A DNA stretch of 34,268 nucleotides from Flavobacteriales bacterium (GTDB taxonomy: Bacteria > Bacteroidota > Bacteroidia > Flavobacteriales > UBA7312). Numbering within the stretch: position 1 is the first letter of the stretch; every line of letters begins with the position of its first letter. A program made the translations under genes and the position numbers. Below the pieces are notes generated by a model. The model was not told the DNA's origin. It was given only the letters and a program-made list of their open reading frames with translations, and made no database searches. Positions 4,579 to 29,753 of the stretch are shown piece by piece. Location: the NCBI GenBank assembly GCA_002715345.1, contig PAYR01000036.1:1-34268 (forward strand), given 5' to 3'.

Positions 4579-6888
4579 ATGGCGAAGAATTTAGTGATAG
4601 TGGAGTCTCCTGCAAAAGCAAAAACTATTGAAGGTTTTTTAGGAAAAGATTTTTTGGTTAAATCCAGTATTGGACATATTCGTGATTTACCTAGAAAGGG
4701 CGGAATGGCTATCGATATTGAGAATGGTTTTCAGCCAAATTATGAGATTTCTCCAGATAAAAAGCAGGTAGTTGCGGAATTGGATAAGCTATCGAAAAAA
4801 GCAGAGATGATTTGGTTAGCAACTGATGAGGATCGTGAGGGAGAAGCAATTGCTTGGCATTTAACGCAGGCATTGAATTTAGATGAGTCGAAAACGAAAA
4901 GAATTGTTTTTCATGAAATTACAAAAACAGCAATTACTAAAGCTGTAGAGAATCCTAGAAATATAGATTACCAACTGGTAAGTGCGCAGCAGGCGCGTAG
5001 GGTTTTAGATCGTTTGGTTGGTTTTGAATTGTCGCCAGTCTTATGGAGAAAAATTAAACAGGGATTATCTGCTGGTCGTGTGCAGTCGGTAGCAGTTCGT
5101 TTGATTGTTGAGAGGGAGCGTGATATTCAAAACTTTGTAAGCACTTCATCTTACCGAGTTACAGCTCACTTTTTCAACAAGGAGCAAAAAGTATTTAATA
5201 CAGAACTTCCTGTTCGTTTCAAAACGAAGGAAGAAGCAACAACTTTTTTGAATGATTGTGTTTCTTCCGATTTTTCGATTGCGTCTTTAGATAAGAAGCC
5301 AGCTAAAAAATCGCCAGCAGCACCTTTTACCACCTCTACCTTGCAGCAAGAAGCGTCAAGAAAATTAGGCTTTACTGTAGGGCAAACAATGAATGTAGCG
5401 CAGAAGCTGTATGAGGCTGGTAAGATTACTTACATGAGAACGGATAGCACAAACCTTTCGGAAGATGCTATGAAGGCTGCGAAAGAGCAGATTACAACAG
5501 TTTATGGCGCTGAGTTTTCAAATCCGAGAAAGTATACCAAGAAATCAAAAGGTGCTCAAGAAGCACACGAAGCTATTCGTCCAACTTATATGCAAAATGC
5601 AACGATTGATGGAGAACGAAATCATCAGCGTTTGTATGATTTAATTTGGAAAAGAACACTAGCCTCTCAAATGGCAGATGCTCAATTAGAGCGTACTACA
5701 GCAGAAATTAACATTTCTAACAGAGATGAAAAGTTAGTAGCGAAAGGAGAGATGGTAAAGTTTGAAGGATTTTTGAAAGTTTACCTTGAAGGATCTGATG
5801 AAGAAGAAGAGCAAAAAGGCATGCTTCCTAAACTAGAAGAAGGAGATGCAGTAAGCATGCAAGAAATCCAAGCTATTGAGCGATTTGCAAAGCCAAAAGC
5901 TCGCTTTACCGAAGCAAGTTTGGTAAAGAAGTTAGAGGAGTTGGGGATTGGTCGTCCATCTACCTATGCAGCAACAATCACAACGGTGCAAAACAGAGGG
6001 TATGTGGAAAAAGGTCAGCGCGAAGGAGTAGAACGCCAATACCATGCTTTAAGCTTGAAAGAAGGAAAAGTTGCAGAGGAAATCAAAACAGAAAAAACGG
6101 GTGCTGATAAATCGAAGTTAATCCCGACAGATATCGGAATGGTTGTAACAGACTTTTTGATGGAGCATTTTAAGCAAGTAATGGATTATAGTTTTACTGC
6201 GGATGTGGAAAAAGAGTTTGATGAAATTGCAAAGGGAGATAAGAAGTGGAATGAAATGATAGGGCAATTTTATGGAGATTTTCATAGTCGAGTAGAAGAA
6301 GTTGCTGAAACTTCCGAGAGAGCAAAAGGAGAGCGTTTGTTAGGACAAGATCCAGGAACAGGTGAAAATATTTACGTGAGGATTGGTCGTTTTGGTCCGA
6401 TGGCTCAAATTGGGGAGGCTAGTGATGAAAAAAAACCAAGATTTGCTTCTTTATTAGCAGGTCAAAGTATTCAGAGCATTACTTTGGAGGAAACATTGGA
6501 ATTGTTTAAGCTTCCTAGATTGATTGGAGAATTTGAAGGAGAAGAAGTAGTGGCTGCGATTGGTCGTTTTGGCCCATATTTGAGACATAAAGGAAAATTT
6601 GTTTCTTTGAAAAAAGCAGAAGGAGATGAACCGTTAACAATTGAAATAGCGCGAGCTGTTGAGGTGATTGAGGCGCATCGACAAGCAGAAAGAGATAGAA
6701 TCATCAATCGTTTTGAGGGAGAGCCTTTGGTACAAGTACTCAATGGACGTTACGGTCCATTTATTCAGATTGGAGAGGGTGCTCGTAAGAATAAGCAGAA
6801 TGTTAAAATCCCTAAAGGAACAGAACCGAAATCACTAACTCGTGATATGTGTTTGGAGTTGGCTGAGCAACAAAAGAAGAAAAAGTAA
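4579..6888 (+). CDS. topA: DNA topoisomerase I (type IA)
   Basis: TopA relaxes negative supercoils by single-strand cleavage and passage. The 769-residue protein opens with the TOPRIM domain: KNLVIVESPAKAKTI (catalytic Glu9) and ATDEDREGEAIAWH with acidic residues D83, D85 and E87. The active-site tyrosine is Y285 in GKITYMRTDSTNLS. GIGRPSTYA and the PTDIG region mark the rest of the catalytic core. The C-terminal part (from about 590) has three RxGRFGP-type TOPRIM_C repeats, the last being GRYGPFIQIGE, and no four-Cys zinc fingers; it ends in a basic Lys tail. This arrangement is common in Bacteroidota. The arginase-like gene begins 1 bp after its stop. Confidence 0.98.
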   Translation: MAKNLVIVESPAKAKTIEGFLGKDFLVKSSIGHIRDLPRKGGMAIDIENGFQPNYEISPDKKQVVAELDKLSKKAEMIWLATDEDREGEAIAWHLTQALNLDESKTKRIVFHEITKTAITKAVENPRNIDYQLVSAQQARRVLDRLVGFELSPVLWRKIKQGLSAGRVQSVAVRLIVERERDIQNFVSTSSYRVTAHFFNKEQKVFNTELPVRFKTKEEATTFLNDCVSSDFSIASLDKKPAKKSPAAPFTTSTLQQEASRKLGFTVGQTMNVAQKLYEAGKITYMRTDSTNLSEDAMKAAKEQITTVYGAEFSNPRKYTKKSKGAQEAHEAIRPTYMQNATIDGERNHQRLYDLIWKRTLASQMADAQLERTTAEINISNRDEKLVAKGEMVKFEGFLKVYLEGSDEEEEQKGMLPKLEEGDAVSMQEIQAIERFAKPKARFTEASLVKKLEELGIGRPSTYAATITTVQNRGYVEKGQREGVERQYHALSLKEGKVAEEIKTEKTGADKSKLIPTDIGMVVTDFLMEHFKQVMDYSFTADVEKEFDEIAKGDKKWNEMIGQFYGDFHSRVEEVAETSERAKGERLLGQDPGTGENIYVRIGRFGPMAQIGEASDEKKPRFASLLAGQSIQSITLEETLELFKLPRLIGEFEGEEVVAAIGRFGPYLRHKGKFVSLKKAEGDEPLTIEIARAVEVIEAHRQAERDRIINRFEGEPLVQVLNGRYGPFIQIGEGARKNKQNVKIPKGTEPKSLTRDMCLELAEQQKKKK

Positions 6889-6889
6889 T

Positions 6890-8044
6890 ATGGAATTCGA
6901 ATTCAGTTTCAAACCAGTAAATCATAAGAAATCTGATTATTCATCTAATCAGTTAGGTGGTTTTGTAGAGGTTTATACTGAAGGTAGTTTTCCAGATTTA
7001 ACGGAAGCGGATGTTGTACTGATTGGTGTTCCTGAATTTAGAGGTACTGCGACCAGTGGTGATGCAAGTTCTTTAGGTAAAATTCGAAAAGAATACTATA
7101 AACTCTTTAGAGGAACAGAGCGTTTAAGGATAGCCGATTTAGGGGATGTTCTGATTGGGGAGAAAACAACGGATACTTTTCATTTGTTAGCAGAGGTATT
7201 GCAAGAGTGTGAGCGAAGAGGTTTATTTGCTTTGATTATTGGTGGTGGACAAGATGCGACTTTTGCACAATACCGATCTTGTGTGCAACTGCAGAAGATG
7301 GTCAATTTGGTGAGTGTGGATGCTCGTTTCGATTTAGGTTTGGATATGGACGATTTAAATGCGAACTCTTACCTCTCTAAAGTAATTCAGGATGAGCCGA
7401 ATTTCTTGTTCAATTTTAGCAATATTGGATATCAGTCTTTTTTGGTTCCACAGGAAGGAATTTCTTTGATAGATAAGCTTTATTTTGATGCGCACAGGTT
7501 AGGTAATGTTCGTGCTGAAATTGAAGAGGTTGAACCGGTTTTAAGAAATGCAGATATTCTGTCTGTAGATATGAGTTGTGTGCGTTTATCTGATGCTCCA
7601 ACAAATGTTGCAGGTTCTCCGAATGGATTTTCTGGAGAGGAGATTTGTAAAATTATGCGCTATGCAGGATTGAGTGGTCGTTTAAGTTCCTTAGGGGTGT
7701 ATGAATACGAATTTTCTAGAGATCTTAATGAACAAACCGCCAAGCTGATAGCGCAAATGATGTGGTATTTTTTAGAAGGATATTTTCATCGAATGAAGCG
7801 CTTAACCCCTAATGAGGAAGATTTTGTGAAATATCATGTGTCTATGCGTGATGGTGAATTTGATGCAGTTTTCTATAAAAACAAACAACTCGATAAATGG
7901 TGGATGGAAATTCCATTAGTTGGTGAGCAAGCGGAACAGTTTAAAGATCATTATTTTATTCCTTGTTCCTGTCAAGATTACCAGTTTGCTAGCCAAGGAG
8001 AGCTTCCTGATAGATGGTGGAAAGCCTTCCAAAAGATGAACTAA
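6890..8044 (+). CDS. Arginase/formimidoylglutamase-fold protein with degraded metal site
   Basis: A 384-residue member of the arginase/agmatinase/formimidoylglutamase (ureohydrolase) superfamily: IGVPEFRGTATSGDASSLGKIR, then IIGGGQDAT, VSVDARFDLG and LSVDMSCVRLSDAP align with the family's GGxH, DAHxD and DxDxxDP motifs. The metal ligands are altered: the GGGH His is Gln121, the DAH His is Arg146, and the second Asp of DxD is Ser229, while D144, D148 and D227 remain. A two-manganese centre therefore seems unlikely, suggesting a pseudoenzyme or binding protein. The C-terminus is unusually Trp/Tyr-rich. The ATG at 6890 follows the topA stop by 1 bp; an earlier in-frame start would overlap topA by 47 bp. 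Automatic annotation would probably call it formimidoylglutamase. Confidence 0.85.
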   Translation: MEFEFSFKPVNHKKSDYSSNQLGGFVEVYTEGSFPDLTEADVVLIGVPEFRGTATSGDASSLGKIRKEYYKLFRGTERLRIADLGDVLIGEKTTDTFHLLAEVLQECERRGLFALIIGGGQDATFAQYRSCVQLQKMVNLVSVDARFDLGLDMDDLNANSYLSKVIQDEPNFLFNFSNIGYQSFLVPQEGISLIDKLYFDAHRLGNVRAEIEEVEPVLRNADILSVDMSCVRLSDAPTNVAGSPNGFSGEEICKIMRYAGLSGRLSSLGVYEYEFSRDLNEQTAKLIAQMMWYFLEGYFHRMKRLTPNEEDFVKYHVSMRDGEFDAVFYKNKQLDKWWMEIPLVGEQAEQFKDHYFIPCSCQDYQFASQGELPDRWWKAFQKMN

Positions 8045-8079: not shown

Positions 8080-8156
8080 CTCCTAAAGAAATTTTAATTA
8101 TTTTAGCGCACAAATATCCCTAAAGAGGGGAGTGGTAAATGTGGAATAATTCATTT

Positions 8157-9056
8157 ATGAAAAAATACTCGATACTGATTGCATTCGCGTTTTTCGGGCT
8201 TGCAGCCAATGCGCAGCAAGATCCCCAATTCAGTCAAAATATGTTTAATCATCATTCAATTAACCCAGGTTATGTTGGGAGTAATGATGCTATTTGTGCA
8301 ACAGCTTTGCATAGATCGCAATGGATGGGTTTTGAAGGCGCGCCCACAACTATGAATTTAAGCGTTGAAGGGAGTGTTCCAATGTTGAGTGGTGGTTTAG
8401 GCCTGAACATCTTGACAGATAAAATAGCGTCTAATGAATTTTTAGGATTAGATCTTTCTTACGCATACAGAACATCTGTAGTGGGAGGTGATTTAGGGAT
8501 TGGTGCTTCTGTTGGATTTTTACAGGATGGCGTGGAAGGAACTCAGTATAATCCTGAAAGTGCTGGAGATCCTACCATACCTGGAGATGAAAAAGGGTCT
8601 GGTTTTGATTTCGGATTGGGTTTGTTTTTCAAATCTGAAACTGTAGAGATAGGTATTTCTACAACACATTTAAATCAAGCCGTAATCACAACATCTCAAG
8701 ACATCTTGAGTTTAAATAGACACTATTATTTATCAGCATTGTATAAATATCAAATGAATGATGTGTTTATGTTGAAGCCATCATTATTTGTTAAAAATGA
8801 TGGAGTGACTACACAAATGGACCTAAATACTATGATTGAATACAATAATCGTTTTTGGGGAGGCGTTAGTTACAGGGTGGATGATGCTATGATTGCAATG
8901 CTGGGAATGCATATAAACGAGAGTTTGAAGTTTGGATTTGCTTATGATATTCCTACTTCTCAAATCGCACAAGGTAGTATGGAGTTTATGCTTTCATATT
9001 GCTTCAAGGTTGATTATACTAGCGTAACAAAAGGGTTTAAGAATCCGAAATTTTAA
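8157..9056 (+). CDS. porP: PorP/SprF-family type IX secretion outer-membrane protein
   Basis: A 299-residue precursor with a Sec signal peptide (MKKYSILIAF..AANA, cleavage before QQDPQFSQ). The mature start QQDPQFSQNMFNHHSINPGYVGSN is the hallmark of the PorP/SprF family, followed by alternating strands of an outer-membrane beta-barrel and a typical end (FGFAYDIPTSQI..GSMEFMLSYCF). In the T9SS, PorP/SprF-type proteins link surface adhesins or the PorKN ring to the outer membrane. The position directly before gldKLMN equals porP in the porPKLMN operon of Porphyromonas. The start at 8157 is chosen because it begins a clean signal peptide; an ATG at 8139 would add six residues (MWNNSF). Confidence 0.9.
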   Translation: MKKYSILIAFAFFGLAANAQQDPQFSQNMFNHHSINPGYVGSNDAICATALHRSQWMGFEGAPTTMNLSVEGSVPMLSGGLGLNILTDKIASNEFLGLDLSYAYRTSVVGGDLGIGASVGFLQDGVEGTQYNPESAGDPTIPGDEKGSGFDFGLGLFFKSETVEIGISTTHLNQAVITTSQDILSLNRHYYLSALYKYQMNDVFMLKPSLFVKNDGVTTQMDLNTMIEYNNRFWGGVSYRVDDAMIAMLGMHINESLKFGFAYDIPTSQIAQGSMEFMLSYCFKVDYTSVTKGFKNPKF

Positions 9057-9128: not shown

Positions 9129-10430
9129 ATGAGAAATTTATTCATTTTAGGATTTGCAATTGCGCTTCTTAGTAGTTGTGGTAGTTCAGGTAACGGAGAG
9201 CTAATAGGGGTTCAGAACAGACCAATTTGGAATCCAACCGATCCTTATGGAATGGTTTACATCCAACAGGGAAGTTTTAACATGGGTCCTGGTGATCAGG
9301 ATGTTCCTTACGGGCATGTTTCTACTTCAAAAACAGTTTCTGTAGCAGCATTTTATATGGATGAAACAGAAGTTACTAATAATGAGTATCGTCAGTTTGT
9401 AAACTGGGTGCGAGATTCTATCGCTCGAATTATATTGGGAGAGATGGGTATTCCTGGTTATGAACTAAAAGAGGAAGATGATTATGGTAATTATATTCAA
9501 CCTCCAAGAATTAATTGGGATAAGCCAATTCGTTGGAAAGATCAAGAAGTGCTAGAAACTTTAGAACAAGAAGGTATGTATCTTCCTCAAAATGAACGTT
9601 TTTATTCAAGAAGAGAGTTTGATTCAAGGATTTTTAACTTTGAATATGAAACTCAAGCGATTAAAGATGCAGCTAGAAAAAGTAATCGAGAACAAGGAAA
9701 GAAAGATAGGTCAGTCTTTATTGATAAAGTTAAGATAAACATATACCCTGATACATTGGTTTGGACGCATGATTACGCTTATTCTTACAATGATCCATGG
9801 ACAAGAAATTATTTTCACCACCCAGCGTTTGATGAATATCCTGTAGTTGGAATAAATTGGAAGCAGGCTGTTGCTTTTTCTAAGTGGAGAACGATGATTT
9901 TAGATAAGTACTTGCTTGAAAGAGATGAGCCTTTACACGATGAGTTCCGTCTTCCTACAGAAACAGAATGGGAGTATGCTGCTAGAGGAGGGTATGATTT
10001 AGCTCCTTACCCATGGGGTGGTCCTTATACTACAAATGAAAAAGGTTGTTTCTTGGCTAATTTTAAGCCGAGAAGAGGTAATTATACAGCTGATGGTGGA
10101 GTTAGAACAGTTAAAGTAGCCTCTTATAATCCAAATAATTATGGCTTGTATGATATGGCAGGAAATGTCTCTGAATGGACAGATAATGCATATGATGAAT
10201 CTGCATTTAGCTTTGCGCATGATATGAATATGGATTTTAAGTATGATGCTGATGAGAACGATCCAGATATACTTAAGCGAAAGGTTATCAGAGGCGGTTC
10301 TTGGAAGGATATCTCATACTATATGCAGACAGGTACTAGAGATTATGAATATCAAGATACAGCAAAATCATATATAGGATTTAGAAATGTTATTTCATTC
10401 CTAGGAAGAGATAAAGTAGACTTTAGGTAA
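9129..10430 (+). CDS. gldK: Gliding motility / type IX secretion lipoprotein GldK
   Basis: GldK (PorK) is an outer-membrane lipoprotein that with GldN/PorN forms the large periplasmic ring of the T9SS. The 433-residue protein starts with a lipoprotein signal ending LLSSC (lipidated Cys17). The rest is a formylglycine-generating-enzyme/sulfatase-modifying fold: GMVYIQQGSFNMG at 41-53, FYMDETEVTNNEYRQF at 75-90, LPTETEWEYAARGG at 275-288, GLYDMAGNVSEW at 339-350 and RGGSWKD at 388-394. An insertion (about 95-230) carries the GldK-specific charged segment. It lies 72 bp after porP and 59 bp before gldL. Confidence 0.96.
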   Translation: MRNLFILGFAIALLSSCGSSGNGELIGVQNRPIWNPTDPYGMVYIQQGSFNMGPGDQDVPYGHVSTSKTVSVAAFYMDETEVTNNEYRQFVNWVRDSIARIILGEMGIPGYELKEEDDYGNYIQPPRINWDKPIRWKDQEVLETLEQEGMYLPQNERFYSRREFDSRIFNFEYETQAIKDAARKSNREQGKKDRSVFIDKVKINIYPDTLVWTHDYAYSYNDPWTRNYFHHPAFDEYPVVGINWKQAVAFSKWRTMILDKYLLERDEPLHDEFRLPTETEWEYAARGGYDLAPYPWGGPYTTNEKGCFLANFKPRRGNYTADGGVRTVKVASYNPNNYGLYDMAGNVSEWTDNAYDESAFSFAHDMNMDFKYDADENDPDILKRKVIRGGSWKDISYYMQTGTRDYEYQDTAKSYIGFRNVISFLGRDKVDFR

Positions 10431-10489
10431 TAAAGAAAAGTTATTAAATACAAATTTTCACAACAGACACAAATTCAAAACAATAAATT

Positions 10490-11104
10490 ATGGCATTAAT
10501 CGATCCAAATTCTAAGAAATTCAAAAACTTTATGGCAAAGCTGTATGGTTGGGGTGCAGCAATTGTAATTTTAGGAGCGTCATTTAAGTTGATGAACTGG
10601 CCAGGTGCTGGTGCAATGCTTACTGTTGGTCTAGGTACAGAAGCAATTATTTTCTTCTTTTCTGCCTTTGAAAAGCCGCATGAAGAGCCAGATTGGAGTT
10701 TGGTATATCCAGAGTTAGCGTATATGAAAGATCCAAACGATATGTCAAATTCAAAAACACCTGTTCAGGAGTTAGATAATATGTTGCAAAACGCAAATGT
10801 TGACCAAGCTTTAATTACTAGGTTAGGAGATAATCTTAGAGCTTTTAATGAAACTGTAGAAGGGGTAAGTAAGTCAATGGATGCTGTTGCTGCAAGTGGA
10901 GATTATAGTGATCAAATGAGAGAGGCAGCAAGAAAACTAGCAGAGATGAATACATATTACGATTTACAATTAAAGACTATGCAAAATATGGGCAATTCTG
11001 TTGGTGATACTGAAAAGTTCCAACAAGAGATTGCAATGTTAGGTGAGAATTTAGCAGCGCTTAATAAGATGTATGGAAATATGCTAAATGCAATGAATAA
11101 ATAA
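10490..11104 (+). CDS. gldL: Type IX secretion motor subunit GldL
   Basis: GldL (PorL) forms the pentameric cytoplasmic-membrane stator around the GldM dimer and uses the proton gradient to drive T9SS and gliding. The 204-residue protein has two membrane helices (about 20-35 and 40-59) joined by MNWPGAGA, then FEKPHEEPDWSLVYPELA and a long helical cytoplasmic tail. Charged residues in or next to the membrane (K33, E51, E61) line up, by alignment from memory, with the functionally important Lys27, Glu49 and Glu59 of Flavobacterium johnsoniae GldL. The gldM start follows its stop by 35 bp. Confidence 0.95.
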   Translation: MALIDPNSKKFKNFMAKLYGWGAAIVILGASFKLMNWPGAGAMLTVGLGTEAIIFFFSAFEKPHEEPDWSLVYPELAYMKDPNDMSNSKTPVQELDNMLQNANVDQALITRLGDNLRAFNETVEGVSKSMDAVAASGDYSDQMREAARKLAEMNTYYDLQLKTMQNMGNSVGDTEKFQQEIAMLGENLAALNKMYGNMLNAMNK

Positions 11105-11139
11105 TTAAACAACAGTTTGTTTATTAACAATTAAGATTC

Positions 11140-12810
11140 ATGGCTGGAAATAAATTATCACCAAGACAAAAAATGATAGGCATGATGTATTTAGTGCTAA
11201 CAGCTCTGTTAGCACTAAATGTATCGAAGACCGTTTTGGATGCATTTGCGAAGATTAATGGAAGCTTATATACAACTTCAATTAATTTTTCTAATAAAAA
11301 CAATGAAGTTTATGCTCAGTTTGAGAATGCAGCTAAAACAAACCCAAGTAAGGCAGGTCCTTGGAGAGATAAGGCATATTCTGTGAAGGAAAGTGCAGAT
11401 GCAATTGTGTTTGATATTCAAAGATTAAAGTACGAGCTAGTTGCTGCTGGTGACGGAAAGGTTAGTCTTTCAATTAATGGGCAAGAAGTAATTAAAGAAA
11501 AAGGAACAACTTTTGATCAATTGTCTAAAACTGAAAAATTTGCTTCATTCTATGAAGTGAATATGAAGAAGGATAGAAATAAATCTTGGGAAATTATGGG
11601 ATATGATGGAGGTAAAGATCAGGGTACTCCTATGGTGCAAGATTTAACAGATTTTAAATCTCTTTTAGTCTCTTACACGACCAACAATCTTTCTATCTCA
11701 AGTTCATTAGAAACTACTTTTGATTTCTCTGATGTAGAGAAAAAGAAAGGGGAAGGAAAAGATACTTGGCTTGAATCGAATTTTAAAGATATGCCTTTAA
11801 TCGCAGCTGTTACTATTTTATCTAAAATTCAAGCAGATGTGCGTAATGCAGAGGCAGATGTGATTAATTTTTTAAAGCAGGAAATTGATGCAACATCTTT
11901 GAAGTTTACTGGAGCAGAAGCTATTCAAATAGCACCTTCTAATTATATTTTTTTAGGAGATACATTTAAAGCAGATGTTTTTATTGCTGCAAAGGATTCA
12001 ACACAAAACCCTACTATATACTTAGGTGATTATGAATTAGGAGAAGATGGTCAGTATACAATGGTTGGAGACTATGATACTATACCTGTAAATGGAGGTA
12101 AGGGAAAATATGCTATCAAAACACGTGCCGAAGGGTATAAGAAATGGGGTGGATTGATTGCTATGAAAACAGATGCTGGAACTCAGATGTACCCTTTTAA
12201 CGGAGAATATCAAGTTGCAAAACAGAGTTTAGTTGTTTCGCCAACTAAAATGAATGTTTTATATATTTTGGGAGATCAAATTGGTAATCCAGTTGATATT
12301 TCAGTTCCTGGAGTTCCTAAAGATAAGTTAATAGCTTATTGTGATAATGGTAAAGTCGTAAAGAAAGGGTCTTCATGGGAAATTTTTCCTACCAAAGTAG
12401 GAAAGGCCAATATTTCTGTTTCTGCAGACATAGATGGTGAGAGAAGGTCAATGGGTAAAATGGAGTTTAGAGTTAAAAGAGTACCCTCTCCTGTGGCAGA
12501 TTTTAATGCGAAGTTAAAAAATGGAAAAATAAAGAAAAATGTGTTGCTAGGTAATTCGACAAAATTAATAGCTTACATGGAGGATTTTGACTTTGATCTT
12601 AAATATAAAGTTGTTGGATTTACATTAGGGGCAACTTATAATGGTTTTTTTCAACCCTATACTACTAAGGGAGCAAGGTTAGATGATAATATGAAAAACT
12701 TAATAAAGAATTTACCGAAAGGATCACAAATTGTGATTTCTAATATTATGGCTAAAGGACCCGACGGAAGACAAGAAAACTTAGGTGCTTTAGCTATAAC
12801 AATGAATTAA
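11140..12810 (+). CDS. gldM: Type IX secretion motor/shaft protein GldM
   Basis: GldM (PorM) is a single-pass inner-membrane protein whose dimer sits in the GldL pentamer and reaches through the periplasm to the GldKN ring. The 556-residue protein begins MAGNKLSPRQKMIGMMYLVLTALLALNVS, the invariant GldM start: a short cytoplasmic end and a membrane helix at about 12-28. A long helical first periplasmic domain and beta-rich domains (SVPGVPKDKL, RVKRVPSPVADF) follow, ending in the conserved KGPDGRQENLGALAI. It is somewhat longer than the roughly 515 residues I recall for other GldM. Codons 17-27 contain a perfect long inverted repeat, listed separately. Confidence 0.96.
   Translation: MAGNKLSPRQKMIGMMYLVLTALLALNVSKTVLDAFAKINGSLYTTSINFSNKNNEVYAQFENAAKTNPSKAGPWRDKAYSVKESADAIVFDIQRLKYELVAAGDGKVSLSINGQEVIKEKGTTFDQLSKTEKFASFYEVNMKKDRNKSWEIMGYDGGKDQGTPMVQDLTDFKSLLVSYTTNNLSISSSLETTFDFSDVEKKKGEGKDTWLESNFKDMPLIAAVTILSKIQADVRNAEADVINFLKQEIDATSLKFTGAEAIQIAPSNYIFLGDTFKADVFIAAKDSTQNPTIYLGDYELGEDGQYTMVGDYDTIPVNGGKGKYAIKTRAEGYKKWGGLIAMKTDAGTQMYPFNGEYQVAKQSLVVSPTKMNVLYILGDQIGNPVDISVPGVPKDKLIAYCDNGKVVKKGSSWEIFPTKVGKANISVSADIDGERRSMGKMEFRVKRVPSPVADFNAKLKNGKIKKNVLLGNSTKLIAYMEDFDFDLKYKVVGFTLGATYNGFFQPYTTKGARLDDNMKNLIKNLPKGSQIVISNIMAKGPDGRQENLGALAITMN
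11189..11220. repeat. Perfect 15-bp-arm palindrome inside the start of gldM
   Basis: Arms at 11189-11203 (ATTTAGTGCTAACAG) and 11206-11220 (its exact complement) flank a 2-nt CT spacer. In RNA the outer bases add two G-U, three Watson-Crick and one further G-U pair, giving a stem of about 21 bp. It covers the codons for Y17 to N27 in the GldM membrane helix, about 50 nt after the start codon. The leucines here use tta, cta, ctg, tta and cta, a mixed set that completes the pairing. Confidence 0.85.
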
Positions 12811-12828
12811 CTTTAAAACCGAAAGATT

Positions 12829-13680
12829 ATGAAAAGGTTTTTATTACTTATATTATCTGTTTCATTTAGCACCCTGCTAATGGGGCAAGATATATTAGAT
12901 GGAGCATACAAGAAAGATATTCGAGATGGTGGTAGAGACAGGTTGATACAACCTTATCATCATGTTAGAGAAGCTGATGTTATGTGGTCAACAAAAATTT
13001 GGAGAGAAATCGACTTGCGAGAGAAGATGAATCAAGTTTTTTATTACCCTGTAAAGCCAATAGATGACAGAAAGAGTTTAATAGATGTATTGATGGATGC
13101 AATTCAATTAGGTGAGATAACTGCTTATGGTAATGCAATTTTTGATGATGAATGGAATTTTCCAATGTCTGATGGTGACGTAGAAATGATAGGTATAGTG
13201 GGTCCCAAGACAGATACTACATGGATGTGGGATGATGAAATAGAAGCGGAGGTTATGCAAATTAATGAAAATGAATTTGATAGAACTTCAGTGAAAAAGT
13301 ATCATATTAAAGAGGAATGGTATTTTGATAAACAAAGATCTGTAATGGATGTGAGAATTATTGGAATCTGCCCTGTTCAAGAGCAATTTGATGATGATAA
13401 TAATTTCTTAGGTTTTACTCCTCTATTTTGGGTGTACTATCCTCAAGCTAGAAGTGTTCTTTCAAAAGCAGAAGTATTTAATAGAAGAAAAAATGATGCT
13501 GCAAGAATGACTTATGATGATATCTTTCATAAACGATTCTTTAATAGTTTCATAACAAAGGAATCTAATAATAAAGATAGACATATTTCCACTTATAAGG
13601 CGGGCTTAGATGCATTGTTAGAGGCAGAGAGAATAAAAGATGAGATATTCAACTTAGAACATGATCTTTGGGAATATTAA
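12829..13680 (+). CDS. gldN: Type IX secretion ring protein GldN
   Basis: GldN (PorN) is the periplasmic partner of GldK in the T9SS ring. The 283-residue precursor has a Sec signal peptide (MKRFLLLILSVSFSTLLMGQ). The mature part shows the GldN pattern: ADVMWSTKIWREIDLREKMNQVFYYP, RKSLIDVLMDAIQLGEITAYG, then KEEWYFDKQRSVMDVRIIGICPV and PLFWVYYPQAR. The end is helical. It begins 18 bp after gldM and is the last gene of the porP-gldKLMN operon, with a strong terminator 20 bp beyond its stop. Confidence 0.96.
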   Translation: MKRFLLLILSVSFSTLLMGQDILDGAYKKDIRDGGRDRLIQPYHHVREADVMWSTKIWREIDLREKMNQVFYYPVKPIDDRKSLIDVLMDAIQLGEITAYGNAIFDDEWNFPMSDGDVEMIGIVGPKTDTTWMWDDEIEAEVMQINENEFDRTSVKKYHIKEEWYFDKQRSVMDVRIIGICPVQEQFDDDNNFLGFTPLFWVYYPQARSVLSKAEVFNRRKNDAARMTYDDIFHKRFFNSFITKESNNKDRHISTYKAGLDALLEAERIKDEIFNLEHDLWEY

Positions 13681-13795: not shown

Positions 13796-15061
13796 ATGAA
13801 AGATAAGATAGCAGTAATAGGATTGGGGTATGTTGGTATTCCTTTAGCTGTTGAGTTTGGTAAGAAGTTTGCTACTATAGGATTTGACATCAATCCTGAA
13901 CGAATTAATGAGTTAAAGGAAGGATTTGATCGAACTTTAGAAATGTCATTTGAAGATTTAGAATCAGCAACTAATCTTTCTTTCACTACTTCAGCCAAAG
14001 AACTAGCGGATTGTAATATTTACATCATTACAGTTCCTACACCCATAAACAATAAAAACTTACCAGACTTAACACCACTTCGTAAATCAAGCGAGGCAAT
14101 TGGTAATGTGCTGTCCAAAGGAGATATAGTTATATATGAGTCGACCGTTTATCCTGGTGTTACAGAAGAAGAATGTGTGCCTATATTAGAGGAAGTGTCA
14201 GGTTTGAAGTTTAATGAAGATTTTTTCTGTGGATATAGTCCTGAAAGAATTAATCCCGGAGATAAAGAAAGAACCCTGACTAAGATTTTAAAAATTACGA
14301 GTGGTTCCACACCTGAAATAGCGCAAAGAGTGGATGGGCTTTATAAATCAATTATCACAGCAGGAACCCACTTAGCTCCATCTATCAAAGTAGCAGAGGC
14401 AGCTAAGGTAATCGAGAATACACAGCGTGATGTAAATATTGCATTGGTTAATGAGTTGGCTTTAATTTTTGACACTATGGGAATTTCATCTCAAGATGTC
14501 TTAGAAGCAGCAGGAACTAAATGGAATTTCTTGAAATTTAAGCCTGGTTTAGTAGGTGGACACTGTATAGGTGTAGACCCTTACTATCTTACTTACAAAG
14601 CCGAGAAAATGGGGTATAAACCAAACCTTATTTTATCATCTAGGCAAATCAACAACGGTATGTCAGCTTATGTGGCTAAAAAAACTATCCGTTTATTAGT
14701 AGAAGAGGATAAAAATATCAAAGATGCCAATGTTCTTATTATGGGTCTTACTTTCAAGGAGAATTGTCCAGATATTAGAAACACAAAGGTTGTTGATATT
14801 ATTGAAGAGTTGAAAGATTTTGGGTGCCAAGTAGATGTGTATGATCCATGGGTTGATAAAGAAGAAGAAAAAAAAACCTATAAGCATGGTTTGATTGATA
14901 ACCCATTTCAATCAAATAAAAAATACGCAGCTGTAGTTGTTGCCGTAGCACATAATCAGTTTGTAGAGTTAACAGAGGAAGATTTTGTTTCTATCTCTGA
15001 TGGAAGCCCAATAGTGATTGATATTAAAGGAATTGTAGATAATCCAAGTTGGAGGTTGTAA
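13796..15061 (+). CDS. wbpA: Nucleotide-sugar 6-dehydrogenase, WbpA/TviB type (UDP-GlcNAc to UDP-GlcNAcA)
   Basis: A 421-residue NAD-dependent UDP-sugar dehydrogenase. The N-terminal Rossmann motif is IAVIGLGYVGIPLAVEF. ITVPTPIN, ESTVYPGVTEE and GYSPERINPGDKE are typical of the WbpA/TviB (UDP-N-acetylhexosamine) branch rather than UDP-glucose dehydrogenase. Catalytic Cys257 is in LVGGHCIGVDPYYL. The C-terminal domain has MGLTFKENCPDIRNTKV. It should oxidise UDP-GlcNAc C6 to the uronic acid, the first Wbp step. The three following genes supply the next steps, which fixes the likely substrate. A run of nine A (14868-14876) lies within the gene. Its stop overlaps the next ATG by one base. Confidence 0.9.
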   Translation: MKDKIAVIGLGYVGIPLAVEFGKKFATIGFDINPERINELKEGFDRTLEMSFEDLESATNLSFTTSAKELADCNIYIITVPTPINNKNLPDLTPLRKSSEAIGNVLSKGDIVIYESTVYPGVTEEECVPILEEVSGLKFNEDFFCGYSPERINPGDKERTLTKILKITSGSTPEIAQRVDGLYKSIITAGTHLAPSIKVAEAAKVIENTQRDVNIALVNELALIFDTMGISSQDVLEAAGTKWNFLKFKPGLVGGHCIGVDPYYLTYKAEKMGYKPNLILSSRQINNGMSAYVAKKTIRLLVEEDKNIKDANVLIMGLTFKENCPDIRNTKVVDIIEELKDFGCQVDVYDPWVDKEEEKKTYKHGLIDNPFQSNKKYAAVVVAVAHNQFVELTEEDFVSISDGSPIVIDIKGIVDNPSWRL

Positions 15062-16005
15062 TGAAGAAGTTTGCACTTATAGGCGCGGCAGGATACATTT
15101 CGCCAAGACACATGAAGGCGATTAAAGAGACCAATAATAATTTGGTTGCTGCGTTAGATCGTTTTGATAGTGTAGGAATTATTGACAGCCATTTTCCAGA
15201 GGCGGATTTTTTTATAGAGCCAGAGCGTTTTGATAGACATTTGTCTAAACTAAGTACAAATGGTAAAGGAGTTGATTACGTAAGTATTTGTTCTCCAAAC
15301 TATTTGCATGATGCACACATACGATTAGGATTGCGTAATGGTGCAGATGCTATTTGCGAAAAACCATTGGTGCTAAACCCATGGAATATTGATGCGCTAG
15401 CTGATATTGAAAAGGAAACAGGAGGTAAGATTAACAATATCCTTCAGTTGCGTTTACATCCTTCTATTATTGCTTTGAAGAAAAAAGTAGAGGAAGAGTC
15501 TGCTGATAAAATATATGATATAGACCTAAGCTATTTAACGAGTAGAGGTAAATGGTATCATATTTCATGGAAAGGAGATTATGAGAAGTCTGGTGGGATT
15601 GCAACGAATATTGGAATTCATTTTTACGACATGTTGACTTGGATTTTTGGGTCTGTAAAAGAAAATGTAACACACCTATTAGAAGAAGACAGAGCTGCTG
15701 GATTTTTACAGTTAAAGAGAGCTAGGGTTCGTTGGTTTTTAAGTGTCAATTATGATTTAATTCCCGAGCACATCAAGGCAATAGGTCAGCGTACTTATCG
15801 TTCTATTACTGTGGAAGGAGAAGAGATAGAGTTTAGTGGTGGTTTTACAGATTTACATACACGCAGTTACGAAGAAATTCTTGCAGGAAATGGTTTTGGA
15901 TTACAAGAAGCAAAGCCATCCATTGAAATTGTGCACGAGATAAGAAATGCTACTCCACAAGGTTTAAAAGGAGATTACCATCCATTTTGTAAAAACAATG
16001 GCTGA
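15061..16005 (+). CDS. wbpB: Gfo/Idh/MocA oxidoreductase, WbpB type
   Basis: WbpB oxidises C3 of UDP-GlcNAcA to the 3-keto sugar. The 314-residue protein has a Rossmann start (FALIGAAGYISPRHMKAI), the CSPNYLHDAHI segment, the EKP motif at 100-102 (ICEKPLVLNPWN), and a conserved GGIATNIGIHFYDML with His187 in the expected catalytic position. Its length matches known WbpB proteins (about 316). The ATG at 15061 shares a base with the upstream TAA (TAATG); an earlier in-frame start at 15049 would add four residues. The order wbpA-wbpB-wbpD-wbpE forms a complete pathway. Confidence 0.9.
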   Translation: MKKFALIGAAGYISPRHMKAIKETNNNLVAALDRFDSVGIIDSHFPEADFFIEPERFDRHLSKLSTNGKGVDYVSICSPNYLHDAHIRLGLRNGADAICEKPLVLNPWNIDALADIEKETGGKINNILQLRLHPSIIALKKKVEEESADKIYDIDLSYLTSRGKWYHISWKGDYEKSGGIATNIGIHFYDMLTWIFGSVKENVTHLLEEDRAAGFLQLKRARVRWFLSVNYDLIPEHIKAIGQRTYRSITVEGEEIEFSGGFTDLHTRSYEEILAGNGFGLQEAKPSIEIVHEIRNATPQGLKGDYHPFCKNNG

Positions 16006-16573
16006 TTTTTTTGTTCATAACACATCCGTTGTGGATGAGAATGTTCAGATTGGGAGAGGAACCAAAATCTGGCATTTTTCTCATGTGCTTTCTAACTCCA
16101 CAATAGGTAGTAATTGTTCGTTTGGTCAAAACTGTGTGGTTGGTCCCAATGTAACAATAGGAAATGGTGTCAAGGTTCAAAACAATATATCCATTTATGA
16201 TGGAGTAGAGGTAGAGGATGATGTGTTTTTAGGACCTTCTATGGTTTTTACCAATGTAGTAAATCCAAGAAGTTTCATTATTCGCAAAGAAGAGTTTAAG
16301 AAGACATTACTTAAGAAAGGATGTTCAGTTGGAGCAAATGCAACAATTGTTTGTGGTATAACCATTGGTAAGTTTGCTTTAGTTGGTGCAGGCAGTGTGG
16401 TAACGAAAGATGTGAAGCCATTTGAAATGGTGTATGGTGTTCCATCCAAGCATCAAGGATGGGTGAGTAAAGCAGGACATACCTTACAATTTAACGAAGA
16501 AGGATTAGCTGTTGATGATTTTGACGGAACAACTTACCGATTAGACAATAACACTGTTACACAAATTCAATGA
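15998..16573 (+). CDS. wbpD: UDP-amino-sugar N-acetyltransferase, WbpD type (left-handed beta-helix)
   Basis: A 191-residue hexapeptide-repeat acetyltransferase that should acetylate the 3-amino group of the WbpE product, giving UDP-GlcNAc(3NAc)A. Repeats begin near residue 10 (VVDENVQIGRGTKIWHFSHV) and run through IGSNCSFGQNCVVGPNVTIGNG to ATIVCGITIGKFALVGAGSVVTKDV. FTNVVNPRS is the usual WbpD-family loop and GVPSKHQGWVSKAG the family end. It would act as a trimer with acetyl-CoA. It overlaps wbpB by 8 bp and wbpE by 4 bp (ATGA). Confidence 0.92.
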   Translation: MADFFVHNTSVVDENVQIGRGTKIWHFSHVLSNSTIGSNCSFGQNCVVGPNVTIGNGVKVQNNISIYDGVEVEDDVFLGPSMVFTNVVNPRSFIIRKEEFKKTLLKKGCSVGANATIVCGITIGKFALVGAGSVVTKDVKPFEMVYGVPSKHQGWVSKAGHTLQFNEEGLAVDDFDGTTYRLDNNTVTQIQ

Positions 16574-17661
16574 AAATTCCATTCATAGATTTACAAGCGC
16601 AGTATCAAGCGTATAAGCTGGAAATTAATGAAGCTATTCAAAATGTGTTGAATTATTCTCAATATATTATGGGGCCTGAAGTAAAGAAATTAGAAGATGG
16701 ATTAGCTGCCTATACAGGATCAAAGCATGCTATTGCATGCAGTAGTGGGACGGATGCACTTCTAATAGTTCTAATGGCAATGGATATTCAGCCTGGAGAC
16801 GAAGTGATTACTACACCCTTCACTTTTATAGCCACTACAGAAGTAGTTAGTTTGCTTGGTGCTATTCCTGTTTTTGTTGATGTTGAGCCAGATACACTCA
16901 ATATTGATGCAAGTAAAATAGAAGAAAAAATTACAGCTAAAACTAAGGCTATTATCCCTGTTTCCTTATATGGTCAAGTGGCAGATATGGATGAAATCAA
17001 TGCAATAGCATCTAAGCATAATTTGATTGTAATTGAAGATGGAGCACAAAGTTTTGGAGCGACATATAAAGGTAAAAAGAGTTGTAATCTAAGCGACTTC
17101 GGCTGTACAAGTTTTTTTCCATCAAAACCTTTAGGTTGTTATGGAGATGGAGGTGCATTATTCACTAATGATGATGCCTTAGCTGAAAAATCACGAATGA
17201 TATTAGCGCATGGATCCAGAGTTCGTTATCAGCATGAATTAGTTGGTATTAACGGTCGTATAGATGCTATACAGGCAGCTATTTTAAATGTGAAGCTAAA
17301 GTACTTTGCTAATGAAGTAGCTGATAGAGAAAGTATAGGACAGCAATATATCGATATGCTAGAGTGTTCTGATTTAACAACTCCGTTTGTGAAGACAGAT
17401 AGAAACAGTGTGTTTGCTCAGTTTACTGTCCGTTCGTCCGATAGAAAGTCGATGATTGAACAATTAAATGCCTCTGGAATCCCTACAGCAATACATTATC
17501 CTCAACCATTACATTTGCAAAAATGTTATGAAAGTTTAGGTTATAAAGTGGGTGATTTCCCAATTGCGGAAAAAGCAGCAAAAGAAGTCTTTTCACTTCC
17601 TATGAGTCCATTTCTTACTAAAGAGCAACAGCAACAAGTGGTTGAATCAATTCTATCCTAA
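16570..17661 (+). CDS. wbpE: PLP-dependent sugar aminotransferase, WbpE type (DegT/DnrJ/EryC1)
   Basis: WbpE transfers an amino group from glutamate to C3 of UDP-3-keto-GlcNAcA. The 363-residue DegT-family protein has IPFIDLQAQYQAYK at the start, SSGTDALLIVLMAM, the PLP Asp in IEDGAQSFGA, and the Schiff-base Lys186 in FFPSKPLGCYGDGGA. YQHELVGINGRIDAIQAAIL and a C-terminal IHYPQPLH match WbpE-type enzymes. In P. gingivalis the equivalent is PorR, needed for A-LPS and for anchoring T9SS cargo (established knowledge, recalled). A 21-bp gap to the next gene is the largest in this operon. Confidence 0.93.
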   Translation: MKIPFIDLQAQYQAYKLEINEAIQNVLNYSQYIMGPEVKKLEDGLAAYTGSKHAIACSSGTDALLIVLMAMDIQPGDEVITTPFTFIATTEVVSLLGAIPVFVDVEPDTLNIDASKIEEKITAKTKAIIPVSLYGQVADMDEINAIASKHNLIVIEDGAQSFGATYKGKKSCNLSDFGCTSFFPSKPLGCYGDGGALFTNDDALAEKSRMILAHGSRVRYQHELVGINGRIDAIQAAILNVKLKYFANEVADRESIGQQYIDMLECSDLTTPFVKTDRNSVFAQFTVRSSDRKSMIEQLNASGIPTAIHYPQPLHLQKCYESLGYKVGDFPIAEKAAKEVFSLPMSPFLTKEQQQQVVESILS

Positions 17662-17682
17662 TAGCCAATATGCAGTGTTTGT

Positions 17683-18957
17683 ATGTCTTTTAAATTTCCT
17701 AAAATATTTAAAGACAGTGCATTCTTACGTAATGTAATGACTCTCATGACGGGGTCCTTTATTGCTCAAAGTATTCCAATAGCTATTACTCCTATCCTAA
17801 CGCGCTTATATACTCCAGAGGAGTTTGGTGTATTGGCATTGTTTGTAACGATTAGCACCATCCTTTCGGTGTTGGTTACCGCTCGTTATGAACAAGCTAT
17901 CTTACTTCCAGAAAAAGAAGTAGAGGCGATACATATTACTAAACTATGTCTTGCTATTGCAGTAATAATGTCTGTAGGGTTTCTAATTTTCATCATGCTC
18001 TTTCACGATTGGATAGTTAGCTTTTTTAATGAGCCAGCCTTGTCTTTTTGGCTCTATTTTATTCCTGTAGTCACTTTGTCAGTAGGAGTATTTAATGGAT
18101 TGAATTATTATTATGTGCGTCAGAAAAATTTTAAGTTTATAGCCTCCTCTGAGGTTTATAAGTCTAGTGCTTTAGGAACTTTACAGTTAGTGTTAGGTTT
18201 GTTGAAAGAGGGTGTGCTAGGATTACTGCTTGGAAAAATTGTTTCCATGCTTGTTGCTCCTATTTATTTATGTCGAAAGACTAAATTTTTTATAGGTTTT
18301 TTTTCAGTTCCAGACTTGAAAAAAGTTGCTAAACGCTACATTGGATTTCCAAAATACATCATGTGGGGAGGTTTTTTTAATACTCTAGCCAACTACGCTA
18401 CGCAATTACTAATCCCTGTCTTTTACTCCACTAATTTACTGGGTTTTTTCGCCTTGGTATATCGGGTGTTGGGCGCTCCATTTACGTTTATCAGTCATTC
18501 CGTGGGCCAAGTTTTTATTGAAGAAGCCGTAAGAGAAAAAAGAGCAAATGGACATGCTAAGGTAATTGTTAAGAAAGTGTTTTGGCAATTGACAGTTTTA
18601 TCTGCTGTAGGGTTTGGAGGATCCTATCTCTTTTTAGAAGAGTTATTTGCAGTTGTGTTTGGAGAAGAATGGAGAGTGGCAGGAATATATGCCCAATACC
18701 TGTTGCCCCTTTTTATGATTAAGTTCATTGTCTCTCCATTAACCAATATACATGCTGTTTTTGAAGCCTTAAAACTTTCTTTTATTTTACAATTGATTAT
18801 GTTGGCTTTATCGATTTCTTGTATACTATATGCTCATTTTTTAGCCATTGAATTTGACAAGTTTTTAATGCTGTTTAGCGGAGTGCTATCTTTGTTCTAT
18901 CTTGTGCGTCTATATATTATTTGGAAGATTGCTAACAACCATCTAGTTGAGAAATGA
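17683..18957 (+). CDS. Polysaccharide flippase, Wzx/PST family (first of two)
   Basis: A 424-residue integral membrane protein with about 12 predicted helices, of the oligosaccharide flippase (MATE/Wzx) superfamily. The N-terminal ALL..GSFIAQSIPIAITPILTRLYTPEEFGVLALF pattern is the usual Wzx start, with an Arg/Glu-bearing second helix (TARYEQAILLP) often seen in LPS-type members. It would move undecaprenyl-diphosphate-linked units across the inner membrane. It overlaps the second flippase gene by 4 bp. Confidence 0.88.
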   Translation: MSFKFPKIFKDSAFLRNVMTLMTGSFIAQSIPIAITPILTRLYTPEEFGVLALFVTISTILSVLVTARYEQAILLPEKEVEAIHITKLCLAIAVIMSVGFLIFIMLFHDWIVSFFNEPALSFWLYFIPVVTLSVGVFNGLNYYYVRQKNFKFIASSEVYKSSALGTLQLVLGLLKEGVLGLLLGKIVSMLVAPIYLCRKTKFFIGFFSVPDLKKVAKRYIGFPKYIMWGGFFNTLANYATQLLIPVFYSTNLLGFFALVYRVLGAPFTFISHSVGQVFIEEAVREKRANGHAKVIVKKVFWQLTVLSAVGFGGSYLFLEELFAVVFGEEWRVAGIYAQYLLPLFMIKFIVSPLTNIHAVFEALKLSFILQLIMLALSISCILYAHFLAIEFDKFLMLFSGVLSLFYLVRLYIIWKIANNHLVEK

Positions 18958-20279
18958 AAAAGTCAGTAGTTTATAATTCTATTCTTACTGTAATTCGGCA
19001 TTTGCTAGGATCACTAATAGGTGTTGTGGCAATAATCATTATAGCTCGTGTACTTGGGAAAGAAGGACAGGGTGAATATACATTAGCAATATTATTACCA
19101 ACTATTTTGTATACTATGTTGAATGGAGGAATCTCTACTGCAACGGTCTATTTTTTAGGGCAACGAAAATATAATCTAGAGGAGGTGTATTCTACTAATT
19201 TCATTTCTTCATTAGCACTTAGTTTAGTGTCTTTTATTGTTGGATTATTTATTGTGTTCTTTTATAAAGATTTCTTTTTTAAAGGAATACCTCAACAACT
19301 CTTACTCTATTCAATGTTGGTATTACCTTTATTGTACTTGCAAAAAAACCTTCAAACAATATTTCAAGCCAAAGAGGATTTTGAAAGGTTTAATTTTATA
19401 GTAATTCTTAATCAATTTGGTCTCCTTTTATTTTCTGTCTTGTTTGTTTGGGGCTTAGAATTAGGAGTGCTCGGTGCTGTTTTAAGCTTTGGGTTTTCTC
19501 AATTACTTATGCTTTTTGTCTCTGTACGCTTACTACGAAAAGAATATTCTTTATTTATTCCTAAATCATTTTCTTATGATTATTTAAAGGAAGGTTTTCT
19601 GTATGGTATAAAAGGACATGTGAGTAACGTATTGTCCTTTGTTAATTATAGAATTGATATGTTTTTGCTAGCATTTTTCCTAGATAATATTGCAGTAGGG
19701 GTATATTCAATTGCCGTTACACTGGTAGAGCGAGTTTGGCTTGTTTCTCATGCAGTATCTTCCGTTCTGTTTGCAAGAGTAGCGAATCTATCTTCAGATG
19801 AAGAACGAAATAAATTTACCTCCATTGCTTCAAGAAACACCTTATTTATAACAGCCTTGACAGGTTTAGTTCTGTTAATTTTAGGTAAATGGATAGTATT
19901 AATACTCTTTGGTTTAGAATATGAATCTAGTGTAAAGCCATTTTTATGGATGCTCCCTGGAGTTGTCCTTTTTTCATTGGGGCGTATCATTGCTAATGAT
20001 TTTTCAGGACGAGGAAGGCCAGAAATTAACACTTATGTTGCTCTTGCAGTAGCAGCAACTAATTTAGGATTAAACTTTATTCTTATTCCAATATTTGGAA
20101 TCATAGGTGCTGCCATGGCAACATCAGCTTCTTATATGCTAGATGCAGTTTTAAAAAGTGTAATATTTGCATTACAAAACAAAGTATCTTTCTTGGACTT
20201 AGTCCTAATCAAGGGAAACGACCTATTGTTGTATAAAACAAAATGGTTAGAGTTAAAACAAAAGGCTTTTAAAAGATGA
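18954..20279 (+). CDS. Polysaccharide flippase, Wzx/PST family (second of two)
   Basis: A 441-residue membrane protein with about 12 helices and the flippase start NSILTVIRHLLGSLIGVVAIIIIARVLGKEGQGEYTLA. The middle GHVSNVLSFVNYRIDMFLLAFFLDNIAVGVYSIAV and the C-terminal FSGRGRPEINTYVALAVAATNLGLNFILIPIFGIIGAA are also characteristic. It is clearly different in sequence from the flippase just upstream, so it is not a recent duplication. Its ATG overlaps the upstream stop (ATGA), and its own stop overlaps the next start in the same way. The substrate is unknown. Confidence 0.88.
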   Translation: MKKSVVYNSILTVIRHLLGSLIGVVAIIIIARVLGKEGQGEYTLAILLPTILYTMLNGGISTATVYFLGQRKYNLEEVYSTNFISSLALSLVSFIVGLFIVFFYKDFFFKGIPQQLLLYSMLVLPLLYLQKNLQTIFQAKEDFERFNFIVILNQFGLLLFSVLFVWGLELGVLGAVLSFGFSQLLMLFVSVRLLRKEYSLFIPKSFSYDYLKEGFLYGIKGHVSNVLSFVNYRIDMFLLAFFLDNIAVGVYSIAVTLVERVWLVSHAVSSVLFARVANLSSDEERNKFTSIASRNTLFITALTGLVLLILGKWIVLILFGLEYESSVKPFLWMLPGVVLFSLGRIIANDFSGRGRPEINTYVALAVAATNLGLNFILIPIFGIIGAAMATSASYMLDAVLKSVIFALQNKVSFLDLVLIKGNDLLLYKTKWLELKQKAFKR

Positions 20280-21886: not shown

Positions 21887-23010
21887 TGTTGGTATTTGTT
21901 CTACCTTCTTGGTATAAAACTACATATAACCCTCTGAATGCCGTTTTCTTCCAAGAGCAAGCTGTTGCACTAAAGAAGCAAGGGGTGTCTGTTGTAGTTA
22001 TTGCTCCAGCCTTAATTTCATTAAAAGAAATTATAAAAGCAAGAAAGTTGGATTTTGGATTGAGGAAAAATATACATAATGAAATTGAAGAATATGTTTA
22101 TCAAATTCCACGGATTCCTTTTTTTGATAGGATTAATTATTTAATGCGAACAATGATAGGAAAGAACTTGTTGAAAACAGCCATAAAAGAACAGGGTTTG
22201 CCAGATGTTTCACATGTTCATTCGTATAAAAATGGTGGGTTGGCAATTTGGTTGAAAAAAGTGTTCAAGGTTCCTTATATTATTACTGAACATAACTCAG
22301 AATTTTTAAGGAATAAAATATCCATCTTTCACAAACAAAAGGCAAAAGAATCTTTTTGTAATAGTGCTGCTAATATTGCTGTTAGTTCAGTACTTGCAAC
22401 TAATTTAAAGAGAAGATTTTTTAGAGATTTTTTGGTCATCCCAAATATTGTAGATGTAGCCTTCTTTCATCCTAAGAAGAGTGAAAAATCCATTTATACT
22501 TTTATAAATGTGGCGCATCTCAATAAAAATAAAAACCAAGCAATGCTAATCAGAGCGTTTGAGAAGCACCACCAAGCATTTCCTAACACACGATTACTTA
22601 TTCTAGGTGGAGGAGAGGAAGAAGCAAACTTACAGGCATTAGTGAGCCGTTTGGGTTTAGCTGAGAGTGTGCGTTTGTTTGGTTATGCTACCCGGGAAGA
22701 GGTGAGGGCTGCCATGCAAAGTAGCGATTGCTTCGTACTTCCGAGTATAGTAGAAACATTTGGGGTAGTATTGATTGAAGCAATGGCGTGTGGCTTGCCT
22801 GTTTTGGCATCTAAGTGTGGAGGACCAGAGTCTATTGTGACAGCGCAGACTGGACTATTATTTGAAAATAATGAAACAGCAATGTTAGAGGCAATGGGAG
22901 CGGTTCTAAAACAAAACTATTCCTCATCAAAAATTAGAAAACATGTTGAGGATACCTATTCAGAAGCAGCTGTTGCGAAGCAAATCATTAATGTATTAAA
23001 GAGTGCCTAA
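21886..23010 (+). CDS. Glycosyltransferase family 4
   Basis: A 374-residue retaining GT-B glycosyltransferase. The N-terminus (VFVLPSWYKTTYNPLNAVFFQEQAVALKKQG) is typical of polysaccharide-locus GT4. The C-terminal domain has FINVAHLNKNKNQAMLIRAF, LLILGGGEEE, and the E-x7-E motif in ETFGVVLIEAMACGLPVLASKCGG. It adds one sugar of the repeat unit at the cytoplasmic face; donor and acceptor cannot be read from sequence. The ATG at 21886 shares its A with the upstream TGA; a GTG three bases earlier is possible but less likely. Confidence 0.92.
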   Translation: MLVFVLPSWYKTTYNPLNAVFFQEQAVALKKQGVSVVVIAPALISLKEIIKARKLDFGLRKNIHNEIEEYVYQIPRIPFFDRINYLMRTMIGKNLLKTAIKEQGLPDVSHVHSYKNGGLAIWLKKVFKVPYIITEHNSEFLRNKISIFHKQKAKESFCNSAANIAVSSVLATNLKRRFFRDFLVIPNIVDVAFFHPKKSEKSIYTFINVAHLNKNKNQAMLIRAFEKHHQAFPNTRLLILGGGEEEANLQALVSRLGLAESVRLFGYATREEVRAAMQSSDCFVLPSIVETFGVVLIEAMACGLPVLASKCGGPESIVTAQTGLLFENNETAMLEAMGAVLKQNYSSSKIRKHVEDTYSEAAVAKQIINVLKSA

Positions 23011-25424: not shown

Positions 25425-25434
25425 ATAAAAGCAT

Positions 25435-29747: not shown

Positions 29748-29753
29748 TACAAT

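Follow-up and report, generated by a model that had tools for sequence, protein, structure and literature searches.

Does a protein that keeps the arginase fold but only half of the metal ligands still work as a hydrolase, and, if not, does its position between topA and a set of T9SS genes indicate what else it does? This question is raised by ARGL, a gene in a 34,268-nucleotide contig of a Flavobacteriales bacterium (PAYR01000036.1; the window hereafter means this whole stretch of DNA). An earlier note, made from the sequence alone, placed ARGL between topA, from which 1 bp separates it, and the downstream genes porP-gldKLMN, and both placements hold: the topA stop codon ends at 6888 and the ARGL ATG begins at 6890, and NCBIfam HMMs confirm the neighbours, with TopA, PorP, GldK, GldL, GldM and GldN each scoring above the curated cut-off (Table 1).

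Table 1. The ARGL locus in window coordinates, with the domains, metal-ligand positions and neighbours of the gene; rows are those of the family alignment
Feature	Position	Strand	Remarks
topA, DNA topoisomerase I	4579..6888	+	TIGR01051, 705 bits; upstream neighbour in conserved array
ARGL, arginase-fold pseudo-ureohydrolase (very probable)	6890..8044	+	384 aa; ATG 6890, stop ends 8044
Arginase-fold domain, about residues 12-305	6923..7804	+	VIA-align match
Gln121, replaces GGGH His	7250..7252	+	CAA; Q 105, H 12, N 7 of 129 rows
Asp144, ligand retained	7319..7321	+	122 of 129 rows
Arg146, replaces DAH His	7325..7327	+	CGT; 18 different residues in 129 rows, H in 4
Asp148, ligand retained	7331..7333	+	111 of 129 rows, N in 11
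Asp227, ligand retained	7568..7570	+	123 of 129 rows
Ser229, replaces second Asp of DxD	7574..7576	+	AGT; S 71, G 21, N 10, T 7, A 6, D 5 of 129 rows
C-terminal domain, residues 306-384	7805..8041	+	four strands, two helices; almost exclusive to the ARGL family
porP/sprF family gene	8139..9056	+	TIGR03519, 231.8 bits
gldK, gldL, gldM, gldN (T9SS motor and ring)	9129..13680	+	TIGR03525, TIGR03513, TIGR03517 and TIGR03523, over cut-off

The arginase fold proposed for ARGL is borne out by both sequence and structure comparison. ARGL matches the Pfam Arginase model PF00491 at an E value of 7.4e-17 (62.2 bits, cut-off 22), and for its AlphaFold2 model (pLDDT 88.3, pTM 0.90) the best VIA-align match is T. 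cruzi formiminoglutamase, at Z 35.0 over 275-276 residues with an rmsd of 2.1, spanning ARGL residues 17-302. The top matches (4myn, 4mxr_A and 2a0m) are tied, and metformin hydrolase chains are also found among the top matches. The best NCBIfam model, formimidoylglutamase TIGR01227, gives 69.7 bits against a cut-off of 229.15, and the earlier warning that a formimidoylglutamase label would be misleading was sound. HutG, the formimidoylglutamase of this model (structures 3m1r, 4mxr and 1xfk), is the nearest fold to ARGL, and its model is matched by 20 of the 20 ARGL family members that were scanned, but ARGL differs from it in the replacement of two His ligands and one Asp ligand and in an additional 80-residue C-terminal domain. 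A name borrowed from a relative such as formimidoylglutamase or agmatinase would imply a part in the breakdown of histidine or arginine, which is not expected of ARGL.

Of the six ligands that make up a binuclear centre, 2 His and 4 Asp, the window copy has three, and the codons confirm Gln121, Arg146 and Ser229 at the other three positions. To say that the protein has lost its metal ligands, as the earlier note did, overstates this pattern: three of six are gone, but Asp144, Asp148 and Asp227 mostly stay. In the arginase site nomenclature, this would amount to loss of the B site, while part of the A site may persist. Across 129 aligned rows from many families (L145-L148, gapped in the N-terminal half, were kept and counted as gaps), none has all six ligands; the best count among the 128 family rows is four of six, and the sole row with five, L160, is an extra-class ureohydrolase without the C-terminal domain. 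His146 occurs in four rows and Asp229 in five (L160 in both), never alongside the full set, and neither is found in the 30 first-fetched loci of the order, window copy included, of which three have His121. In the 129 rows, Gln121 is mostly kept, position 229 is mostly S, G or N, and position 146 is freely variable. Glu272 is kept in 102 of the 129 rows and is N or G in 25. In the most degenerate members, family f6 (L141-L143), positions 144, 148 and 227 are replaced too, and the gene is kept.

To place these changes in the family, we compared 47 members with 21 canonical ureohydrolases, which FastTree separates by a split with local support of 1.000. Residues H146, D229, S158, G159 and E272 are each present in 21 of 21 comparison ureohydrolases and are relaxed in the ARGL family, whereas F199, E215, P216, R219 and W292 are found in 47 of 47 family members and are not conserved in the comparison set, whose sequences contribute no more than 2 residues to the C-terminal columns. 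The dN/dS of ARGL is 0.083 between the window genome and a congener and 0.054-0.100 in three other pairs. Selection for a probably non-hydrolytic role, as argued earlier, is supported by these values (0.05-0.10) and by the finding of no relatives with intact ligands among the aligned family rows. The values, together with the open frame, also rule out a pseudogene or frameshift. Since every relative examined has an incomplete ligand set and purifying selection acts on the gene, the loss is not due to chance or sequencing error, and the low dN/dS and the new invariant residues indicate that loss of the metal centre was followed by new constraint, not decay. ARGL is very probably a true pseudo-ureohydrolase, and the ARGL family is one well-separated, ancient, class-wide family of probable arginase-fold pseudoenzymes with a private domain. 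From the well-supported split and the shared loss, we infer that the binuclear centre disappeared, in a single origin, from an ancestor resembling formimidoylglutamase or agmatinase before the Bacteroidia diversified. The C-terminal beta domain was gained, and new invariant residues arose in both domains.

The C-terminal domain on its own is predicted to fold (pLDDT 90.1, pTM 0.78) into four strands and two larger helices. Of 119 Bacteroidia genomes, 113 have it, as a rule in a single copy that lies within ARGL; two additional matches are weak (E 3.1e-4 and 0.0097), and in G014 (family f6) the domain was missed by the domain profile. Conserved Arg, Lys and Trp are abundant in the domain, its most conserved positions in the 129 rows include W337 (128), F328 (127), C359 (127), Y364 (126) and W338 (124), and its dN/dS is 0.021-0.053 over four genome pairs. 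Searches with the domain gave nothing at E 0.001 with Foldseek against the PDB (best E 2.8), a best Z of 4.3 with VIA-align, a best E of 0.5 in a viral library, a best E of 0.036 in Pfam, in one of 20 members, and a best E of 0.27 against PDB sequences. With no significant Pfam, PDB-sequence, viral or fold match in these searches, no known identity was found for the domain, which does not imply that its fold is novel. Weak phage matches were to gp84 (PDB) and the Pam3 gp18 Pfam model.

We then looked at how widely ARGL occurs. It is present in 234 of 246 Bacteroidia genomes at E 1e-20 and in 139 of 199 genomes of the order around G281, where 40 genomes missing from the match list were counted as negative and one match (G712) covers profile positions 175-387 only. 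Matches were obtained in 45 of 60 relatives, a few of the weakest being canonical paralogues. In a phylum sample, 147 of 296 genomes match at a loose threshold, and the matches outside the class are weaker (best 157 bits) and end before the C-terminal domain. Contigs of named genomes contain at least 585 relatives, of which 80 were kept. We found no description of the family, its domain or its near-universality in the open-licence literature searched. The Bacteroidia are a major component of the microbial communities of gut, ocean and soil, and ARGL is retained in nearly every lineage sampled.

Linkage to the neighbours was determined in two sets of loci, from which those with short flanks were excluded (2 and 22): 38 usable of 40 family-representative loci (L161-L200, about one per family, taken from listed matches with coordinates, with remote families under-sampled) and 58 usable of 80 contig-scan loci, the 80 being those kept of at least 585. 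L057, L066 and L073 are absent from the neighbour ORF map. Among the family-representative loci, 22 have both topA and porP/gldK, 3 topA only, 2 T9SS only and 11 neither; among the contig-scan loci (80 of at least 585 kept), the corresponding numbers are 25, 20, 0 and 13. Directly upstream, topA is found in 25 of 38 and 45 of 58 loci, and porP or gldK is found directly downstream in 24 of 38 and 25 of 58, the second set again representing 80 of at least 585. When broken arrays are pooled, including the contig-scan loci (80 of at least 585 kept), ARGL stays with topA 23 times and with T9SS genes twice (binomial p 2e-5, kinship ignored). The gap between topA and ARGL is 30 bp or less in 16 of the 27 loci with TopA first upstream (median 20), and these short gaps suggest that topA and ARGL probably share a transcript in many lineages.

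To relate ARGL to the T9SS at the genome level, we used SprA as a proxy in the class and order samples, which overlap in some genomes. In the class sample, 231 genomes have both SprA and ARGL, 8 SprA only, 3 ARGL only and 4 neither (Fisher p 1.1e-4); in the order sample, the numbers are 138, 51, 1 and 9 (Fisher p 1.0e-4). SprA is also found in 52 of the 60 nearest relatives. The association is real at the genome level and is shaped by kinship. An accessory factor of the T9SS or gliding, such as a cytoplasmic protein that regulates the GldL-GldM motor, would be consistent with it, as ARGL is missing from 4 of 7 (class) and 9 of 10 (order) SprA-negative genomes, and would also fit the porP/gldK linkage and the second T9SS neighbourhood in family f19 (L145, L146 and L148). 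The Fisher tests, however, ignore kinship, and the exceptions run in both directions. ARGL is missing from 8 of 239 and 51 of 189 SprA-positive genomes, all 8 of the former also having GldN, which means that T9SS genes are kept without ARGL, and SprA-positive members of f25, f119 and f199 lack ARGL too, so that its loss there may precede T9SS loss. Conversely, G519 has an intact ARGL in a 397-codon frame and no SprA, GldN, PorU or GldL. The presence and absence of ARGL in SprA-positive and SprA-negative genomes, together with the array breakpoints, rule out a core part of the T9SS and speak against the specific T9SS role suggested by the earlier note; the co-occurrence that the note proposed to look for stands as a genome-level association but not as a rule. 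We consider an accessory role unlikely. The most persistent neighbour is topA: the short gaps, the persistence of the topA-ARGL pair where T9SS genes have left, the conserved Arg, Lys and Trp of the C-terminal domain and, in 12 loci, a downstream ruvC-like gene on the other strand could all point to a protein that acts together with TopA or elsewhere in DNA metabolism and binds nucleic acid through its C-terminal domain. Yet the adjacency, from which a topA-related role is possible, may reflect mere ancestry of an old array, the WGR-domain rows in the VIA-align search are background (Z under 3), and 24 of the 96 usable loci (contig-scan loci from 80 of at least 585 included) have neither neighbour; we regard such a DNA-binding partner of TopA as quite improbable.

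The remaining alternatives concern catalysis, in ARGL itself or in a partner. If ARGL were a one-metal or metal-free hydrolase or lyase that uses Asp144, Asp148, Asp227 and Gln121, this would explain why 81 to 95% of the rows retain these residues (129 rows), and the relaxation of 146 and 229 agrees with an A site that stayed and a B site that was lost. Ser158-Gly159 is relaxed, however, Glu272 is often replaced and family f6 changed 144, 148 and 227 yet kept the gene, which makes an enzyme of this sort doubtful. Pseudoenzymes on this fold are a known kind. Hai et al. in 2015 reportedly described TbARG, a Trypanosoma brucei arginase-like protein without a binuclear manganese cluster, and a 2022 study is said, by its title, to concern bacterial sequence divergence in which arginase function was lost and a fused protein in some species. 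TbARG and ARGL both have an arginase fold that evolved without the binuclear cluster, but TbARG is eukaryotic, whereas the ARGL family is near-universal in a bacterial class and has a private additional domain; the fused arginase-like protein belongs, by title, to some species only, whereas ARGL is class-wide. In its kept fold, lost binuclear ligands and conserved gene, ARGL resembles pseudoenzymes of the TbARG and MetCb kind. The functions of arginase-fold proteins without a binuclear cluster are termed elusive in PMC11271267, where MetCb is described as a metal-free arginase-family subunit that acts together with its active paralogue MetCa, with three to five changed ligands in its clade. 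Like MetCb, ARGL is a probable bacterial arginase-fold pseudoenzyme with several of the six ligands changed, and by analogy it could be a catalytically inactive subunit that binds an active enzyme of the arginase family and keeps it stable. This functional precedent is compatible with 54 of 59 genomes, which have either several PF00491 matches or one whose identity with ARGL was not established. In the other five (G019, G151, G190, G312 and G519), however, the sole PF00491 match (E 1e-5 or better) lies inside ARGL, and the model therefore cannot hold throughout. Moreover, MetCb is encoded beside MetCa (PMC11271267), whereas no canonical paralogue was noticed adjoining ARGL among the clustered neighbours. 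These five genomes rule out an obligate MetCb-like partner as a general model; ARGL is not in general a partner subunit of an active arginase, and we consider such pairing very unlikely.

We favour the reading that ARGL is a non-hydrolytic cytoplasmic adaptor or ligand sensor and not a core part of the T9SS, to which we assign a probability of about 0.7, and which can overlap with a T9SS or a topA/DNA partner. The half-kept pocket (Asp144, Asp148, Asp227 and often Glu272) may hold one metal ion or a guanidino or amidino compound, and the new conserved surface and the C-terminal domain would contact a partner. Some observations sit less easily with an adaptor or sensor: the three Asp and mostly Glu272 are kept, and a Q, N or H residue at 121 might coordinate metal, which would leave room for an enzyme with one metal and another chemistry; some rows keep His at 121 (12) or at 146 (4); a sensor predicts conservation of the pocket, yet 146 varies freely and 25 rows have N or G at 272; and no one neighbour was seen to indicate the same pathway across all orders. 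In a bolder form, ARGL would have been a non-catalytic sensor of guanidino, amidino or polyamine-type compounds since the root of the Bacteroidia, with the C-terminal domain signalling to an envelope (T9SS/gliding) or DNA-topology partner. We hold this form to be rather unlikely; if true, the class would be defined by a regulatory protein, ARGL, whose additional domain has a fold that has not yet been described. For work on the T9SS, effort can be saved by knowing that ARGL can outlast the system and can be lost where the system stays.

Several further observations were made on the T9SS genes and on the surroundings of ARGL. G389 has PorU but no SprA or GldL, and its assembly is thus probably incomplete, while G061 lacks SprA and PorU and keeps GldL and GldN. 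In family f17 (G133, G190, G174 and G151), SprA and GldL are over cut-off and no PorU sortase is, and the T9SS there may use another or no sortase. Family f9 (G017, G030 and G041) has small genomes in which ARGL is missing and SprA is diverged, with a best piece of 531-546 bits versus more than 2000 in most others.

In family f19, ARGL lies beside murF and gldJ (L145, 685-8467; L148, 8651-11538; L146 likewise), and in L145 porP and porU are also beside these genes (HMM check; GldJ was also HMM-checked in L148). A murF-like gene is the convergent neighbour of ARGL in L190 (4467-5771, family f102). The 12 loci with the ruvC-like gene as the next downstream are L036, L037, L049, L052, L059, L062, L070, L088, L094, L099, L101 and L102, the identification being HMM-confirmed for L036 only. 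By eye, a deoxyhypusine-synthase-like gene is one upstream of ARGL in L084, L089, L098 and L110 (few related loci), and a peptidylarginine-/agmatine-deiminase-like secreted protein is one downstream in L079, L089 and L098, so a polyamine or arginine context is possible there. In the window itself, a surface-glycan cluster (13796-33709, ORFs named by eye) follows directly after gldN on the same strand and includes UDP-sugar dehydrogenases, two tandem flippase-like proteins, O-antigen-ligase-like membrane proteins, glycosyltransferases and an epimerase.
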